Shown here one piece after another: positions 6,721 to 39,702 of a stretch of 46,560 bases of DNA. Made by a program: the position numbers and the translations under genes. How positions within the stretch are numbered: position 1 is the stretch's first letter; each line of letters starts with the position of its first letter. The notes beneath the pieces were generated by a model that did no database searches, was not told where the DNA came from, and saw nothing but the letters and a program-made list of their open reading frames with translations. The stretch is from NCBI GenBank assembly GCA_018825145.1, contig JAHJFD010000044.1, positions 1-46,560 of the forward strand, read 5' to 3'. The DNA comes from Patescibacteria group bacterium. GTDB lineage: Bacteria > Patescibacteriota > Gracilibacteria > UM-FILTER-43-11.

Positions 6721-7154
6721 GGGGATGTATTTGGTTTTGACGTTAATGATTTAAGTTAATTGATGGCAATCCAGGCATCGCGCTGTCTGCCTGCCAATTA
6801 GCCCAGCGCATTATAAGTGCAAATACTTATAGATCTTTAGCTGCTTCTGCAAAACGAATGGCTGCAAGAGTTTCGACTCCTGCTTTCGTTCCTTTTTTTG
6901 CTTAAATAGCTATTACGCCCCGCTGAGCGGGGCTCGTCTTGCATAGCGACACCTGCTGACTGTGTAAGGCGTAATTTAGCAGGTTAAGCCCCGACGACGC
7001 CTTTGGAGGTGTCGGGGTCGAAAAAATAACCCAGATAGGCTAAGTCGCTTTTGTTCGTCTTTATGGCTTAGATGAAAATTCTAAACGAACTATGATTGTA
7101 GAGGTTTATTGACTTCATTTTCGGACCCCGGTTCGACTCCGGGCATCTCCACCA
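6721..7154 (+). ncRNA. ssrA: Transfer-messenger RNA (tmRNA)
   Basis: The 5' end GGGGATG pairs with CATCTCC at the 3' end to make the tRNA-Ala-like acceptor stem. The T arm (CCCGG-TTCGACT-CCGGG) and an encoded terminal CCA are present. With the ArfB-like protein it rescues stalled ribosomes and tags the nascent chain. The resume codon is GCA at 6819-6821. The tag frame runs through ANTYRSLAAS..., ends VPFFA, and stops at TAA 6903-6905, giving 28 encoded residues instead of the usual 8-15. A GCCCCGC/GCGGGGC hairpin follows the stop, then pseudoknot-like GC-rich segments. The total of 434 nt is long for tmRNA. The tag end resembles the FA-ending tags of mycoplasmas more than the common LAA end. 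Confidence 0.95.
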
Positions 7155-13118: not shown

Positions 13119-13217
13119 GACAGGTGATGAAACGATAAGTTGACGCGCGCTTCAAAGATATTCGAGTAAACTAATTTTGAGAGACAAGGGGGTATACCCT
13201 GGAAGGTTAGAAATTCC

Positions 13218-13272
13218 GTTGCACAAGGTTTGTGCAAGATCTGTGCAAAGTTTGTGCAAGATCTGTGCATCA
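13218..13272. repeat. 11-bp-period repeat array A (core TGTGCA)
   Basis: Five consecutive 11-bp units start at 13218, 13229, 13240, 13251 and 13262. Units 2 and 4 are identical, and units 3 and 5 are near copies. The shared core is TGTGCAa. It lies in the 240-bp spacer between the FkbM and PolX genes. There are no spacers of CRISPR type. Confidence 0.8.
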
Positions 13273-13346
13273 GAATTCAGTACTCCAAAGAGGATACCCT
13301 GACCTTGCCATTTTTTGGGTTCGCTTTTTTTGATGGTTTGTTATGG

Positions 13347-14315: not shown

Positions 14316-14397
14316 TATAATGGCTTTGCTGAAATATACGCTTTCTTATTGATCACTTTTTTTTCTTTATACATCACATTAAGGGAGTCTCATATTT

Positions 14398-14417
14398 AAT
14401 CCCGCCATGGCGGGATT
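14398..14417. repeat. Perfect 20-bp palindrome
   Basis: AATCCCGCCATGGCGGGATT is its own reverse complement. It lies between polX and the small secreted-protein gene. No T-run follows on either strand, so it could be a terminator stem, a protein-binding site or a mobile palindromic repeat. Confidence 0.7.
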
Positions 14418-14493
14418 GTGCGGACACCCACCTTGCTTATCAGGGGAAAATAATGTGCATATAAGGGCGGTATTTTGGCTTTTTAGGTAGTTA

Positions 14494-18760: not shown

Positions 18761-18788
18761 GGGCGTAATGATGAAGGCATTCAATTTT

Positions 18789-18866
18789 GGGCAACATTGC
18801 CCCAACAATGCTGGAAAATTGCTAGGTCAATGTGTCTTCTTTTATGGTGTCATTGATATATCAATG
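18789..18866. repeat. 11-bp-period repeat array B (core CATTG/CAATG)
   Basis: CATTG or CAATG-like cores end at 18799, 18810, 18821 and 18832, exactly 11 bp apart. After a degenerate unit, CATTG (18851-18855) and CAATG (18862-18866) resume 11 bp apart with a 1-bp shift. Located in the convergent spacer between pheT and the SLH gene. Confidence 0.7.
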
Positions 18867-18901
18867 ATGACTTTTTTTGATATGGAAGAGGCTCGCCTTT
18901 T

Positions 18902-26995: not shown

Positions 26996-27916
26996 ATGAA
27001 GTTATCCGAGGCCATCAGGCAGTTTTTGGAGCACTGTGAGATTGAAAAAAATCAGTCCAAGCGAACGCTGGTGAATTATCAGCATTATCTGGAACGGTTT
27101 TTGGAGTTCGCCAAAGACGTTGAGCTTTCGAAAATCGATTTGGGACTGGTGAAGCGCTATAGGCTTTTTCTGAATCGCTATGAGTTTCGCCCGCATGAGC
27201 CGCTTTCTGTTAAAACGCAAAACTACCACATAATTGCGCTGAGGGCTTTTTTGAAATACTGCGTTAAGCAGGATTGGAAGACGCTGGAGCCGGAGAAGAT
27301 TGAACTTAGCAAAATTCCGGACCGCACTGTGGAATACCTGACGCGTGATGAGCTGGAACGGCTTTTTGAAGCCGTAGATACGAGCACGATTGTCGGCCTT
27401 AGGAACCGGGCAATTATGGAATTTTTGTATTCGACAGGTCTGCGTATCAGTGAATTGGTGGCGCTTAATCGTGACCAGATAAATCTGGAACGGGGTGAAT
27501 TTCAGGTGCGCGGAAAGGGCAGGAAAATGAGAATTGTGTTTTTGTCAGGGCGGGCAAAGGAGTGGGTTTGTGATTACCTGGAGGCGAGGGACGACGGTTA
27601 TGAACCTCTGTTTTTGAATCATCGTCGGGCACGGGGGAAAAAGGCGGGGGCAGTTGAAATGAAAGGCGAACACCGCCGGCTGACCGAGTACACGATTCAG
27701 GAAATGGTTCGCCGTACGGCTTATGAAGCGGGTATTGTAAAAAAAGTAACACCCCATGTCCTTCGTCATTCCTTCGCCACTGAGCTTTTGATAAACGGTG
27801 CTGACATACGCAGTGTGCAGGACATGCTGGGCCACGCAAGCATCACGACGACCCAAATTTACACTCATCTGACTAACAAGAAACTTCGGGAAATTCATGA
27901 GAAGTTTCATAGATAA
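26996..27916 (+). CDS. Tyrosine recombinase of the XerC/XerD type
   Basis: 306 residues, the normal Xer length. The N-terminal SAM-like core-binding domain (1-95) precedes the catalytic domain with Arg about 150 (STGLRISELVAL), the beta-hairpin Lys in GKGRKMRIV, HVLRHSFATELL (His about 254, Arg about 257), LGHASITTTQIYTH (His about 280) and the nucleophile Tyr about 288. It could resolve chromosome dimers as the single Xer of a reduced genome, or serve an integrated element. Housekeeping is favoured because it resembles full-length Xer proteins and no att sites are seen. Confidence 0.92.
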   Translation: MKLSEAIRQFLEHCEIEKNQSKRTLVNYQHYLERFLEFAKDVELSKIDLGLVKRYRLFLNRYEFRPHEPLSVKTQNYHIIALRAFLKYCVKQDWKTLEPEKIELSKIPDRTVEYLTRDELERLFEAVDTSTIVGLRNRAIMEFLYSTGLRISELVALNRDQINLERGEFQVRGKGRKMRIVFLSGRAKEWVCDYLEARDDGYEPLFLNHRRARGKKAGAVEMKGEHRRLTEYTIQEMVRRTAYEAGIVKKVTPHVLRHSFATELLINGADIRSVQDMLGHASITTTQIYTHLTNKKLREIHEKFHR

Positions 27917-28470: not shown

Positions 28471-28500
28471 TCCCAGTGAGGCGTGCCCATATTAAAAAAG

Positions 28501-28544
28501 TCATTATTAATCCGTTAATAACCGGTTAACAATGGGTTAATAAC
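28501..28544. repeat. 11-bp-period repeat array C1 (core TTAATAA)
   Basis: Four consecutive 11-bp units start at 28501, 28512, 28523 and 28534. The core is TTAATAAC or its inverted form ATTATTAA. A related partial unit follows. Confidence 0.8.
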
Positions 28545-28577
28545 ATTGAAAAGGGATACTGGAGGGTAGTCAAAAAA

Positions 28578-28632
28578 GTTAACATTAGTGGAACATTGGT
28601 GGGTCAATGGTGGATCAATGATGGCAAAAAAG
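28578..28632. repeat. 11-bp-period repeat array C2 (core ACATTGG/TCAATGG)
   Basis: Units of 11 bp start at 28578, 28589, 28600, 28611 and 28622. The middle ones share a TGG(N)nCAATG or CATTG core, the same words as arrays B and D2. Confidence 0.8.
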
Positions 28633-28961: not shown

Positions 28962-28973
28962 GGGGCCGGCCCC
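28962..28973. terminator. GC palindrome at the end of the small membrane-protein gene
   Basis: GGGGCCGGCCCC is a perfect 12-bp palindrome lying at the minus-strand stop of the small gene. A terminator stem is plausible, but only a short T stretch follows. Confidence 0.35.
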
Positions 28974-29164
28974 TAGAAGAAGGAGCCGGCGATGTAGGGG
29001 GTGACGTACGTGGAGTACGCCACGGCGAGATCCTCGTGGAACCGGAAGACCAGAGCCGCCACTGCCCCAAGGAACAGAGCGAGCTTGATCATCTTCTTCG
29101 CGAGCCAGAGGCCCACGAAGAGGGTCACGAGGCCGAGAGCAACCCACATCAGATTGGGGTCCAT
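28973..29164 (-). CDS. Small two-helix membrane protein, GC-rich, unknown
   Basis: 63 residues from ATG 29162-29164. This start is chosen because AAGGAGG lies 7 nt before it; a TTG one codon upstream would be only 4 nt away. Two hydrophobic segments are seen: about 5-20 (LMWVALGLVTLFVGLW) and 28-42 (LALFLGAVAALVF), joined by AKKMIK, with a polar tail. Function unknown. About 87% of its codons end in G or C (roughly 55 of 63), far from its neighbours, and it has a consensus promoter plus a textbook SD, which is unusual here. Transfer from a high-GC donor is the simplest explanation. It could also be a phage-type small membrane protein. Confidence 0.7.
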   Translation of the reverse strand: MDPNLMWVALGLVTLFVGLWLAKKMIKLALFLGAVAALVFRFHEDLAVAYSTYVTPYIAGSFF

Positions 29165-29201
29165 CAAGGAACCTCCTTGTTAGGGTTATGGTTGCTTAGT
29201 A

Positions 29202-34219: not shown

Positions 34220-34248
34220 ATTATAGCAAAAAACCTATTATTAACCCA
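34220..34248 (-). promoter_or_regulatory. Promoter of cca, overlapping repeat array D1
   Basis: Minus strand: TATAAT (complement of 34220-34225), 18 nt before the ATG, with TGGGTT 17 nt upstream (complement of 34243-34248). The -35 region lies in the first units of array D1. Confidence 0.45.
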
Positions 34249-34288
34249 TTATTAATGGGCTATTAATAGATTATTAATGTGCTAATAG
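34234..34288. repeat. 11-bp-period repeat array D1 (core ATTATTAA)
   Basis: Units of 11 bp start at 34234, 34245, 34256, 34267 and 34278. The first four end in TATTAA; three have ATTATTAA. It lies in the divergent spacer between cca and the aminopeptidase gene. Confidence 0.85.
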
Positions 34289-34300
34289 TGTCTAAAAGAG

Positions 34301-34344
34301 CATCATTGACTGATCAATGCTCCATCAATGCCGGGTCAATGACA
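34301..34344. repeat. 11-bp-period repeat array D2 (core TCAATG)
   Basis: Four consecutive 11-bp units start at 34301, 34312, 34323 and 34334. Three carry TCAATG and the first carries TCATTG, close to the inverted form. Paired with D1 as C1 is with C2. Confidence 0.85.
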
Positions 34345-36029: not shown

Positions 36030-36060
36030 ATTTAGATAATTTTTGAAAAAACAAAAATAC

Positions 36061-39000
36061 ATGGCAATCGGTAAAAAAGACAAGGGCGGGCGGTACGATG
36101 ACAAGGACACCAATGATGAAACTTCTGATGTACCTTTTGATATTAATGATTTGAACAAGGTTCCGGGGCCGGAGGAAGGGGTTGAAAGGCCCGAGGATGT
36201 TGTTACACAGACGCGAACTGATGTCACCGAAGACCTGGCTGGACGAACTGAGAGCGGTGATAATATTAAGAACCTTTCTGAAGCTATACGAAAAGATGAG
36301 CTTCTGGACATTGTTTTCTTCCACGGAAGTCCTGTTAAGAAACTCAAGAAAAAGGGCTATAAAATATCCAAAAAAAGCGAACTTAGCAAAATTGTTGATG
36401 AAATTCTTGCAACTTCTGACGAGCATGAAGAAGCCAAAAATAAAGGTTACACACCGGCAAAGAGCCTTACTGTGGCCGCTCTGGATCAGCATGGTTTTGA
36501 GTCTGATATGCTGCCGGATTTTGCCGATATGCTTGATGAACGTTTAAAAGAACAAACTGAAAAGGCAAAAGAACCTGCGACACCTGCACCTACTCCGACG
36601 ACTCCAGAACCTGCTCCTGCTCCTAAACCCGAACCTGTACCGACTGCGAAAGCTAAAGCGCCTGAGGCTGTCACTGATGATGAGATACTGCAGGCTGCAT
36701 TGAAACGAATAGAGGCATTTACGGACATCAAGTTATTTGAAAAGTTTGTTTACCAACGACTGCACGCGGACAAGCTCATCAAGAAAGACAAAAGACCTGA
36801 CTGGTCTGTCACCCCGGTTGAAGGATTTAAGGGGTCGGAGGCTCTGTGTAAAGCGGTTATGGCCAAAAAGGCCGAGCTTTCTACCAAGAAAAAGACCGCG
36901 GAACCTGCTCCTGCACCCACTCCTGAACCGACTCCTACGCCGGAACCACCTGTTGGTGCCGCCTCCGAAAAAGAGGCGCTTGATGGCCTAAGCCAGTACT
37001 TAAACAATCTGACGGAAGGGCAAACTGCCCTGGAAGACCTGCGTAAGCGGCTCGAACAAATTTTTGAAATACTCAGAACAGATCCTTCAACGTTTTCTGA
37101 AACAGACAAGGATTACCTGACTGATATTCAAAAAGAAATGGAGGCGGTACTTTTATCCGAACTTCCAAAAGTGGCCGAAGGCATTGGCTCACCTAAAAAT
37201 ATGACTGAATTGCTTGCGGCACTTAGGGCTCCGGGTAAGCTCCGTCGGAATAAAGCGGCCATGACAGCGCTCAATTCGGCCCTGAAAGGCGACGCTGAAT
37301 TCGCGGAAATCATTGAGGATTTTTACCGAATCACCGGAAAGGAGCCTGCAGTCGCCGCGGAAGAACCTTCTGCCGCTCCGGAAACTGTTCCTGAGCCGAC
37401 TGATATACCTCCATCGTTGGCCTCCGCGATTAATGCGGCCGCAGCCGGTGATGACATCAAAAAAAGGAAACTTCATTTTTTATGGCGGGTCTATAAAGGC
37501 GAAGCATCATTTGCCGACGGGACGGATCCTGAACCTGTGAAGACGCTTATAATGATTGCCCTTGATCAGGCTGAAAATCTAAATGTACCTCAAGATGAAG
37601 TGGTCGATACTCTGAATCTGGCGCTGAAAAAGGCGGGCATGCTGGAAGCCTCTGAGCCGAGTGCACCGGCTCCGACTCCGACACCTCCAAGTGCACCGGC
37701 TCCGACTCCGACACCTCCAAGTGCACCACCCGCCGCTCCGACTCCGAGCACAACGCCCGCACCTCAGCCTTCCGCAAGCCCGCAGGCATCGGTTAATGCA
37801 GGTGCTCAAAGACGTGCACCTGAATCTTACGCGACCAAAGAAATACAGACACAAGCCATTAACACCTTCATGACCAACATGGGCTTTCCCAAAAGCAACA
37901 AGACTCCGGTGGTTATGGCTATAAGAAGTGTTCTGGGCGCATGGGTCACAGGACCCTCTATTTTGACCGGACTTGAAGCCTATTTAAAAACCGGCCACGA
38001 AGCTGATGAAATCGAGCGGTTGGCCAGAAATAATTCCGAAGAAGACCTGAAGAAACAACTGCATGGCATGGCGGGAGAATTAGCTGGTCTGAATCAGCAG
38101 ATTGAGGAAATTAAACGCTATAACCGCCTGAGGTATACCAGTACCCGGACCCATGTAACCCATTCTGTTGAAGCCAAAGCACTGGCCGAAGGTCATCCGC
38201 TCAAAGAGCTACAGTCTATGCAACATAGCGCGGCTGGTGAATTTGCCCTGAATGAAATTCAGCTCAAGCGTGTTGCCGCGAATATGGCTAAGGAAGACGC
38301 CGAGCCGGACAGCGATGAAAAGAAGGCAAAGATGGAGAAACTTGAGAAAGAATTCTCTGAACTTACCGCAAAAAAATCCGAACTGGAGGCAAAAAGAAAA
38401 TACCTTGCCGAAGCGCTGGTCATTTTGTCCGAACAAGCCACACCTGTAACAGAGGAAGATGCTGAAACCCGCGGCAAAAAAATCCGTGAACTTGAAGAGC
38501 AGAAGAGCAAACTTGATGAAAGGAAACGCAATACCGAAAAGGCGATTGCTAAAAAAACTGAATTGAAAGATGAGGAACCCCTGAGATACAGCCGGGAACC
38601 TGAAAAGCTTCTGAGTATGATCAATTTTTATTTTGCCCAACAAGGTAAAGCCGCGAATAAAAAGCCTGATTATGTCCAGATTCTGAACAAAACTCAGGAG
38701 CAGATTGAAGCGACCAGAAGAAAAGAAGCGGGTAAATTGAATTGGGTATGCAACCGACTGCTTCCCTGGAATTATCTGAAGCCATTACTTACTTCGACTC
38801 TTGTCGCCATTTGTGAAAAAGATTCAGCCCTTACTAAAAAGGTTCCCCCCGAAAAAGCCAAGGAACTGGCTAAGGCATGGGATAACTCGGAAAGTGTCAA
38901 TAGCTGGATCAGCGGTCTGGGAATTCCTGAAAAGGAAGCGATGGAAACTGTTGTGCCTAAACTGATTGCCCATCTGGCCATTGTTACCAACACCGGACGC

Positions 39001-39702
39001 ATGGCTAATATAAATTCGATTTCGCTCAACCGGGCCAAAGCTCTGCTTAAAAAAATGCGTCACGCGGTGCATGAATACTCAATCAAGCATGCCGAAAGAT
39101 CCACCTCAAAAAAGAGCATAGACAGAATGGGTGCTTACTTCACTCAATATAATCAGATTAATGATAATGCCAAAGCGCAGGAGAGTATTGTCGTCGGGAA
39201 TTCAAGGAAAGTCATGGCTCGAAATGCCTTTATCGCGGGGGGAATCGGAGTTGGGGCGGTTCAGATTTTAAGTCTTAGCGGAATAGCCCTGGGAGGCGCC
39301 GGATTAGCAAGCGCCGCCGGTATAATGACGGGGGCCAGTCTGCGGGTGAAAGATCCAAAGATTAAGGAATTCTTACGCAAAGCCTCTGTAAGAACCCTTG
39401 TGGGCGGCGGTTTGGGGGCTTTGGCACTGGGGGCAGCGAGTCCTTTTGTGGCCGCGCCGCTTGGTTTGGCGGCTCTTGGCGGCGTGTTTAGTCCGGAAAT
39501 ATGGAAGAAACGAAAAGAAATTGCGGCCGCTACCAAAAAACATGGTCCGGGGGCCCTTCGGACAACCGGTAAAGTCGGATATGTCGGAGCGCGGCTTGGC
39601 TGGGCCGCCACGGGAATACTTCTTTCATGCGGTGTATTAATGCTCAGTAGTCGGTATCGCAATCTTTTTGGAATGCATTTCCGCCCTTTACTAGGTAAAT
39701 AA
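36061..39702 (+). CDS. Giant Pro-rich/coiled-coil membrane-associated protein, unknown
   Basis: About 1213 residues from ATG 36061; an in-frame TTG at 36043 is possible. The N-terminal half alternates small acidic helical modules with linkers of Ala-Pro-Thr-Glu repeats (near residues 180-200, 285-305 and 545-580). Modules near 140-175 and 500-535 share a K-S/T-L...ALDQ...D...L..LK pattern, so they are probably duplicates. Residues about 680-860 are a long charged coiled coil. After a helical domain with LPWNYLKPLL, the C-terminus (about 1055-1200) has three Gly/Ala-rich hydrophobic segments, probably in the membrane. No signal peptide and no enzyme motif. First of four consecutive genes of unknown function; a structural or scaffold role is a guess. 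Confidence 0.65.
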   Translation: MAIGKKDKGGRYDDKDTNDETSDVPFDINDLNKVPGPEEGVERPEDVVTQTRTDVTEDLAGRTESGDNIKNLSEAIRKDELLDIVFFHGSPVKKLKKKGYKISKKSELSKIVDEILATSDEHEEAKNKGYTPAKSLTVAALDQHGFESDMLPDFADMLDERLKEQTEKAKEPATPAPTPTTPEPAPAPKPEPVPTAKAKAPEAVTDDEILQAALKRIEAFTDIKLFEKFVYQRLHADKLIKKDKRPDWSVTPVEGFKGSEALCKAVMAKKAELSTKKKTAEPAPAPTPEPTPTPEPPVGAASEKEALDGLSQYLNNLTEGQTALEDLRKRLEQIFEILRTDPSTFSETDKDYLTDIQKEMEAVLLSELPKVAEGIGSPKNMTELLAALRAPGKLRRNKAAMTALNSALKGDAEFAEIIEDFYRITGKEPAVAAEEPSAAPETVPEPTDIPPSLASAINAAAAGDDIKKRKLHFLWRVYKGEASFADGTDPEPVKTLIMIALDQAENLNVPQDEVVDTLNLALKKAGMLEASEPSAPAPTPTPPSAPAPTPTPPSAPPAAPTPSTTPAPQPSASPQASVNAGAQRRAPESYATKEIQTQAINTFMTNMGFPKSNKTPVVMAIRSVLGAWVTGPSILTGLEAYLKTGHEADEIERLARNNSEEDLKKQLHGMAGELAGLNQQIEEIKRYNRLRYTSTRTHVTHSVEAKALAEGHPLKELQSMQHSAAGEFALNEIQLKRVAANMAKEDAEPDSDEKKAKMEKLEKEFSELTAKKSELEAKRKYLAEALVILSEQATPVTEEDAETRGKKIRELEEQKSKLDERKRNTEKAIAKKTELKDEEPLRYSREPEKLLSMINFYFAQQGKAANKKPDYVQILNKTQEQIEATRRKEAGKLNWVCNRLLPWNYLKPLLTSTLVAICEKDSALTKKVPPEKAKELAKAWDNSESVNSWISGLGIPEKEAMETVVPKLIAHLAIVTNTGRMANINSISLNRAKALLKKMRHAVHEYSIKHAERSTSKKSIDRMGAYFTQYNQINDNAKAQESIVVGNSRKVMARNAFIAGGIGVGAVQILSLSGIALGGAGLASAAGIMTGASLRVKDPKIKEFLRKASVRTLVGGGLGALALGAASPFVAAPLGLAALGGVFSPEIWKKRKEIAAATKKHGPGALRTTGKVGYVGARLGWAATGILLSCGVLMLSSRYRNLFGMHFRPLLGK
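37661..37720 (+). repeat. 30-bp tandem repeat coding a Pro-rich linker
   Basis: Two identical 30-bp copies (37661-37690 and 37691-37720) plus a partial third encode SAPAPTPTPP units in the giant protein. Slippage could vary the linker length. Confidence 0.9.

Follow-up and report, generated by a model that had tools for sequence, protein, structure and literature searches.

The question raised by positions 28,501–28,632 of the window, the whole 46,560-nucleotide stretch analysed (contig C51 of the draft genome G000, 1.157 Mb in 67 contigs), is which process made the two arrays of short words found there. Transposases or regulatory sites are the usual explanation for dispersed repeats in bacteria. 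Array C1 (28504–28543; model R2 match 28494–28554, E 1.1e-11) reads as four 7-bp words, TTATTAA (28504–28510), TTAATAA (28515–28521), TTAACAA (28526–28532) and TTAATAA (28537–28543), the first unit being inverted relative to the other three. Array C2 (28583–28620; R2 match 28573–28631, E 2.3e-11) reads as four 5-bp cores, CATTA, CATTG, CAATG and CAATG, at 28583, 28594, 28605 and 28616. The linker between them, AAAAGGGATACTGGAGGGTAG (28544–28582), resembles both doublet linkers of the sister genome G001 (AAAAGAGnYATGGYGGGGTAG). The original prediction described TTAATAA-type cores in C1 and CAATG/CATTG cores in C2, in 11-bp units, and, 5.7 kb away, arrays D1 and D2 with this pair of word types in matching order; the letters bear this out, and every step is exactly 11 bp. 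D1 (34238–34288) has five TTATTAA-type words, the last inverted (CTAATAG), with an orthologous five-unit TAATA array in G001, while D2 (34304–34341) has four CAWTG words and is missing from the orthologous G001 site. The outermost words of an array are mutually inverted, a feature the earlier description had not mentioned; usually one end unit only is turned (direct, direct, direct, inverted), C2 being the exception with a two-and-two orientation.

Further elements lie in the window; like the preceding features, they are not assigned to a strand, and all array positions and gene contexts are based on a simple ORF caller. Array E (18784–18833) consists of degenerate CATTG/CAATG units, with a doublet of CAATG and TAATA arrays at the syntenic G001 site, and adjoins a short palindromic relative, ATCATTGATATATCAATGAT (18849–18868). 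A different type of element, with arms and core, spans 13190–13305 (model R1 match, E 8.1e-20); its core (13210–13278) is made of five 11-bp units with TTGCACA/TGTGCAA words, and a degenerate remnant is found in the third genome of the genus, G002. The same window encodes a tmRNA (6721–7154) with a long predicted tag, ANTYRSLAASAKRMAARVSTPAFVPFFA, a 6S RNA match (14323–14485; RF00013, 50.9 bits) and a 30-bp tandem repeat (37660–37742; Tandem Repeats Finder score 108–136) inside the ORF at 36043–39702. A possible 64-aa small membrane-protein ORF (28973–29167, minus strand) separates C2 from the DNA polymerase III alpha gene, and a similar stretch is seemingly present in G001. An Xer-like tyrosine recombinase gene (26996–27916) lies about 0.6 kb upstream of C1, and its G001 ortholog adjoins the orthologous doublet; the enzyme was rejected as a specific partner of the elements because the gene is present in every genome tested, including two that lack them.

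Chance does not explain the 11-bp period. The pattern TCAATGN5TCAATG occurs 14 times in the 1.16 Mb of G000, against none for a reversed-letter control. A word-blind scan for four 7-mers at a fixed period, direct or inverted and with at most one mismatch, covered about 0.8 Mb of this genome (some contigs masked), including 67 kb of intergenic DNA, and detected 14 four-unit intergenic arrays at period 11 but 0–2 at any other period between 8 and 22. Twenty shuffles gave a mean of 0.15 such arrays, in agreement with the original prediction that AT-richness alone would not produce them, and three-unit arrays at period 11 numbered 28 against 4.85 in shuffles. Other bacteria do not share this excess: once the selecting site was masked, 536 kb from other genomes contained 2 arrays at this period and 0–7 at others. 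Every hand-checked array lies between genes apart from one, which the simple caller puts within an ORF that is probably a spurious extension. The genome-wide search that had been proposed thus returned further instances by pattern counts, by the word-blind scan and by family models, which covered whole genomes. The matches to a database-wide CAATG-array pattern were for the most part perfect 11-bp tandems from viral contigs and unrelated bacteria, along with one true relative (L073, in a sister genome). At the start of G000 contig C32 (L190:1–89), a near-perfect 11-mer array (GTGGGGCATGG) runs into the contig end, closing with CATTG/CAATG units, and probably broke the assembly.

The elements form two families, A and B/C, both non-coding, palindrome-ended and intergenic, and both consisting of dispersed, hairpin-forming inverted repeats. 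In family A, the ends of the arms, AATTCTGATGC and GCATCAGAATT, which are the terminal inverted repeats of the core (alignment A4), surround five 11-bp units with the word TTGCACA (or its reverse) or TGGCGCC; the window element at 13190–13305 belongs here. Family B/C has 3–5 units of CAWTG (as in C2 and D2) or TAWTA (as in C1 and D1), with the outermost units inverted, and includes array E. A TATACCTCTTTTTGGG-like flank motif occurs near both, reaching a score of at least 11/16 in 14 of 62 A arms and 9 of 48 B/C arms compared with a background of 2.8%. All of the words are near-palindromes, so that any unit is able to pair with any other. Twenty-nine A cores form an ungapped alignment of 70 columns, in which the whole-core pairing register gives 78.8% standard pairs versus 26.6–49.2% when slid by 1–3 columns. 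One G001 copy is exactly 11 bp shorter. Varying word positions show changes on both sides (A-U/C-G, U-A/G-C); since these double changes mostly separate two subfamilies, TTGCACA and TGGCGCC, they represent few independent events and count as supportive covariation only, in which pairing between units is not separable from the dyad inside each unit. Family A folds on either strand with z from −1.1 to −8.8, and B/C folds weakly, with z mostly from 0 to −4.

About 30 of these short palindromic elements are present per genome, as a genus-specific set. The genus sample comprises three genomes, G000, G001 and G002, all of them draft assemblies. The family A model gave 26, 26 and 22 matches and the B/C model 29, 24 and 11, respectively; because matches were counted on both strands, sites are about half as many (approximately 11–13 per genome for A and 7–16 for B/C). 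Among 55 genomes beyond the genus, the B/C model had no match and the A model only marginal ones (E 3.6e-4 or weaker, in 3 of the 55), and syntenic sites in two further genera within the family lack the element (A_win in G005, A183 in G012). A plasmid collection held nothing matching the A element of the window. Other genera of the family carry 11-bp tandems of unrelated words, TGTAGCCTCAA and TCCGAAGTCCA, which are largely direct (G017 L261–L263, G003 L247). In a limited open-access literature, no report of such 11-bp intergenic arrays in Patescibacteria was found.

Comparison of the same intergenic sites in the sister species, identified through their flanking genes, revealed what is inherited. 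An element is also present in a sister at A17, A26, A39, A40, A41, A47, A64, A66, B9, B33, B53, C1, C2 and D1, and the element-bearing site A53 was compared between G001 and G002. The word at a shared site is frequently a different one: TTGCACA in A64 is TGGCGCC in G002, TGGCGCC in A39 is TTGCACA in G001, CATTG in B9 and B53 is TATTA in G001, and at B33 the window genome has CAATG, G001 has TAATA and G002 has TTAATAA. Replacement was also seen at A26, A66, A40, A47 and A53, and at A17 relative to G002, while the word is kept in some A pairs (A17 and A41 between G000 and G001; A39 between G000 and G002). Of six comparable B/C pairs between G000 and G001, half have changed word (B9, B33, B53), and C1, C2 and D1 keep theirs. 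Where a word is replaced, it is swapped in all units with self-complementarity kept. Unit number differs by at most one between sister sites and spans remain multiples of 11, so the drift of the period that would have told against the original prediction is not seen, and arrays lengthen or shorten only by whole units of 11 bp. At A41 the inner array is inverted between G000 and G001. A number of sites hold no element, or a degenerate one, in a sister (A_win and A41 in G002, F25 and D2 in G001), which indicates that elements are also gained or lost.

These comparisons change what is to be regarded as the unit. The word pair, or the doublet of a C-type followed by a B-type array, had been taken as the defining feature, a claim that is not supported: most copies are single, D2 is lacking in G001 and words change between species. 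The C1–C2 doublet is kept at its G001 site and a second G001 doublet occupies the site of array E, so that the doublet is a recurrent arrangement rather than the unit. What stays constant is the site, together with inverted ends, a self-complementary word and the 11-bp phase. Local duplication does not account for the elements, as the original prediction held, and its proposal that one process makes or maintains the elements is supported.

Within a genome, A cores resemble one another more than orthologous cores do across species. Core identity across 11 ortholog pairs averages 0.657, compared with 0.677 ± 0.026 for random cross-species pairs (P = 0.77), and within genomes it is 0.80 overall (G001, 0.88; G002, 0.83; G000, 0.70, the cores of G000 being the less homogenised). 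Flank scores show the opposite trend, at 48–230 for orthologs versus a paralog 95th percentile of 29, and at A66 the flanks are orthologous right up to the core edge with the core alone different. Together, core identities and flank scores in family A amount to concerted evolution, in which the locus and arms are inherited and the core is overwritten, probably by copying between the palindromic copies; for B/C, homogenisation was judged by word type per genome, core identity having been computed for A.

The explanation that we favour, and consider reasonably probable, is that of genus-specific intergenic elements with an exchangeable core, homogenised by copying, in which form is preserved over letters. 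C1 and C2 are two copies of a family of small non-coding elements, each with imperfect inverted arms that flank, as a rule, 3–5 self-complementary words with centres exactly 11 bp apart, and this core would behave as an exchangeable cassette. Gene conversion, or templated repair from one dispersed copy to another, may keep cores at different loci alike. Units within an array could be alike because a self-complementary word, when single-stranded, can pair with any other unit, so that a hairpin or slipped template would overwrite one unit with another and change the length of the array by whole 11-bp units. The inverted ends would permit conversion or exchange between loci, including an inversion of the inner array such as that at A41, and either selection or the copying mechanism itself would keep the inverted ends, dyad words and 11-bp phase rather than the letters. 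The two families, their phase and intergenic placement, synteny, word replacement, self-complementarity and the homogenisation of family A within genomes are shown directly; we infer the copying route by hairpin or template switch, as well as a mainly parasitic or neutral nature of the elements, as opposed to one as operators. Positions common to the species, with sequence replaced in concert while the exact 11-bp step and self-complementarity are preserved, offer a testable case of short-palindrome copying between sites in a very small genome without a known REP transposase, and make it testable what an 11-bp module is selected for.

A more specific process is possible, though we hold it only tentatively: a dedicated cassette-exchange or homing activity may overwrite the core of about 57 bp between fixed inverted ends, recognising the form (self-complementary 11-bp modules) and not the sequence. 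If so, position and 11-bp form would be inherited while a sequence word sweeps the genome of each species.

It is unlikely that the elements are non-autonomous mobile elements of the MITE or REPIN-like kind, moving whole, with word differences reflecting independent re-insertion of new subfamilies at the same spots. Inverted ends, dispersed copies, near-identical cores at many loci within one genome and presence or absence between species (F25 and A97-type sites being empty) would all fit such movement, but A66, where the flanks are orthologous and only the core differs, does not. Nor was machinery found: the RAYT (Y1 HUH) transposase profile PF01797 matched nothing in any of the three genomes of the genus, whereas 5 of 14 control genomes were positive, and a reverse transcriptase search gave one match, in G001 only, below the cut-off. 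No copy with widely separated arms was present in the searched stretches, 808 kb of G000 having no pair of half-elements flanking a gene as a parent transposon would. A target-site duplication could not be defined, the candidate empty sites A41b (G002), A97 (G000) and F25 (G001) being too diverged for junction placement.

Binding sites for a dimeric DNA-binding protein, with the dyad word as the site and the 11-bp spacing placing successive sites on one helix face of a cooperative nucleoprotein stretch, are likewise a doubtful interpretation. Known analogues would be CarH or ParR operators and datA/oriC-like DnaA clusters, and dyad words at helical spacing, restricted to intergenic DNA, are what such a role would produce. 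G000 itself contains a row of four DnaA-type boxes, TTTCCACA, stepped at exactly 11 bp (contig C44, L153:15354–15400), about 0.3 kb upstream of a dnaN-like ORF (365 aa); this row, which shares the step length of the arrays, is a likely replication origin. However, a recognition word conserved across orthologous loci was not found, the word having been replaced in most syntenic A pairs and in three of six B/C pairs, and this disfavours an operator role. At least two words coexist in G000 and in G001, and replacement at each locus together with several words per genome argues that no single sequence is recognised. Position relative to promoters and gene orientation is also inconsistent, and the steps are exactly 11.0 bp, with no mixture of 10 and 11. 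A reading of family A as DnaA boxes was rejected because G002 has TGGCGCC at the same sites. Nineteen viral contigs (L348–L366) contain at least three TTGCACA words at 11-bp spacing, apparently far above chance, and in one of them (L364) the tandem runs into TTATACACA DnaA-type boxes; these are direct tandems without arms and were rejected as members of family A.

It is very unlikely that the elements are functional RNA hairpins that work in either orientation as terminators, stabilisers or mRNA 3' ends. Strong folding of family A on both strands would suit that role, and several copies lie directly past stop codons or between convergent genes, but B/C folds weakly, some copies lie between divergent genes, and the arrays have no match in Rfam. 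Where T and A runs flank B/C hairpins, as read by eye, the T run precedes and the A run follows, the wrong sides for an intrinsic terminator (a GC-rich hairpin followed by a U-run), and a terminator role is disfavoured by these flanks and by placement. Ordinary minisatellites arising by replication slippage of an 11-bp unit, which whole-unit length changes, the near-perfect array at L190 and perfect 11-bp tandems known from database pattern matches in other bacteria and phages might suggest, are the least probable of all, since spacers differ within an array, end units are inverted and unselected DNA of other bacteria has no period-11 enrichment, and the idea is largely refuted by a nearly identical 57-bp core at many separate, unlinked G001 loci.

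Elements with an exchangeable core and a preserved form have partial counterparts among known systems. CarH 11-bp direct-repeat operators and ParR/parC iterons share the 11-bp step on one helix face; in those systems one defined word is read by one protein, whereas in the elements described here the word changes. MITEs (RUP, Correia and ERIC; PMC10969869) are similarly short, non-coding and intergenic, with terminal inverted repeats and presence or absence between relatives; here the core is replaced while the element stays in place, no parent transposon was found in the 808 kb of G000 searched, and no target-site duplication could be placed at the diverged empty sites. REP, BIME and REPIN sequences with their RAYT transposases (PMC3116915, PMC2817692) are also dispersed extragenic palindromes that occur as inverted-repeat doublets, form hairpins and are alike within a genome. 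Unlike these, the present elements are multi-unit 11-bp arrays at about 30 copies per genome, in three genomes with no Y1 transposase. In organisation they resemble the pneumococcal BOX element (boxA-boxB(n)-boxC), likewise a modular intergenic repeat with conserved ends and a variable number of tandem central modules, foldable, narrow in taxonomic range and sometimes clustered, and described as confined almost wholly to pneumococcus and S. mitis (PMC3049150). The likeness is one of organisation, boxA, boxB and boxC having been compared by description, and extends to module number, with 3–5 units in B/C and one A copy a unit shorter. The boxB module is about 45 bp long; here the module is 11 bp, is itself a dyad and holds strictly to the 11-bp phase, and its sequence is exchanged at syntenic sites.
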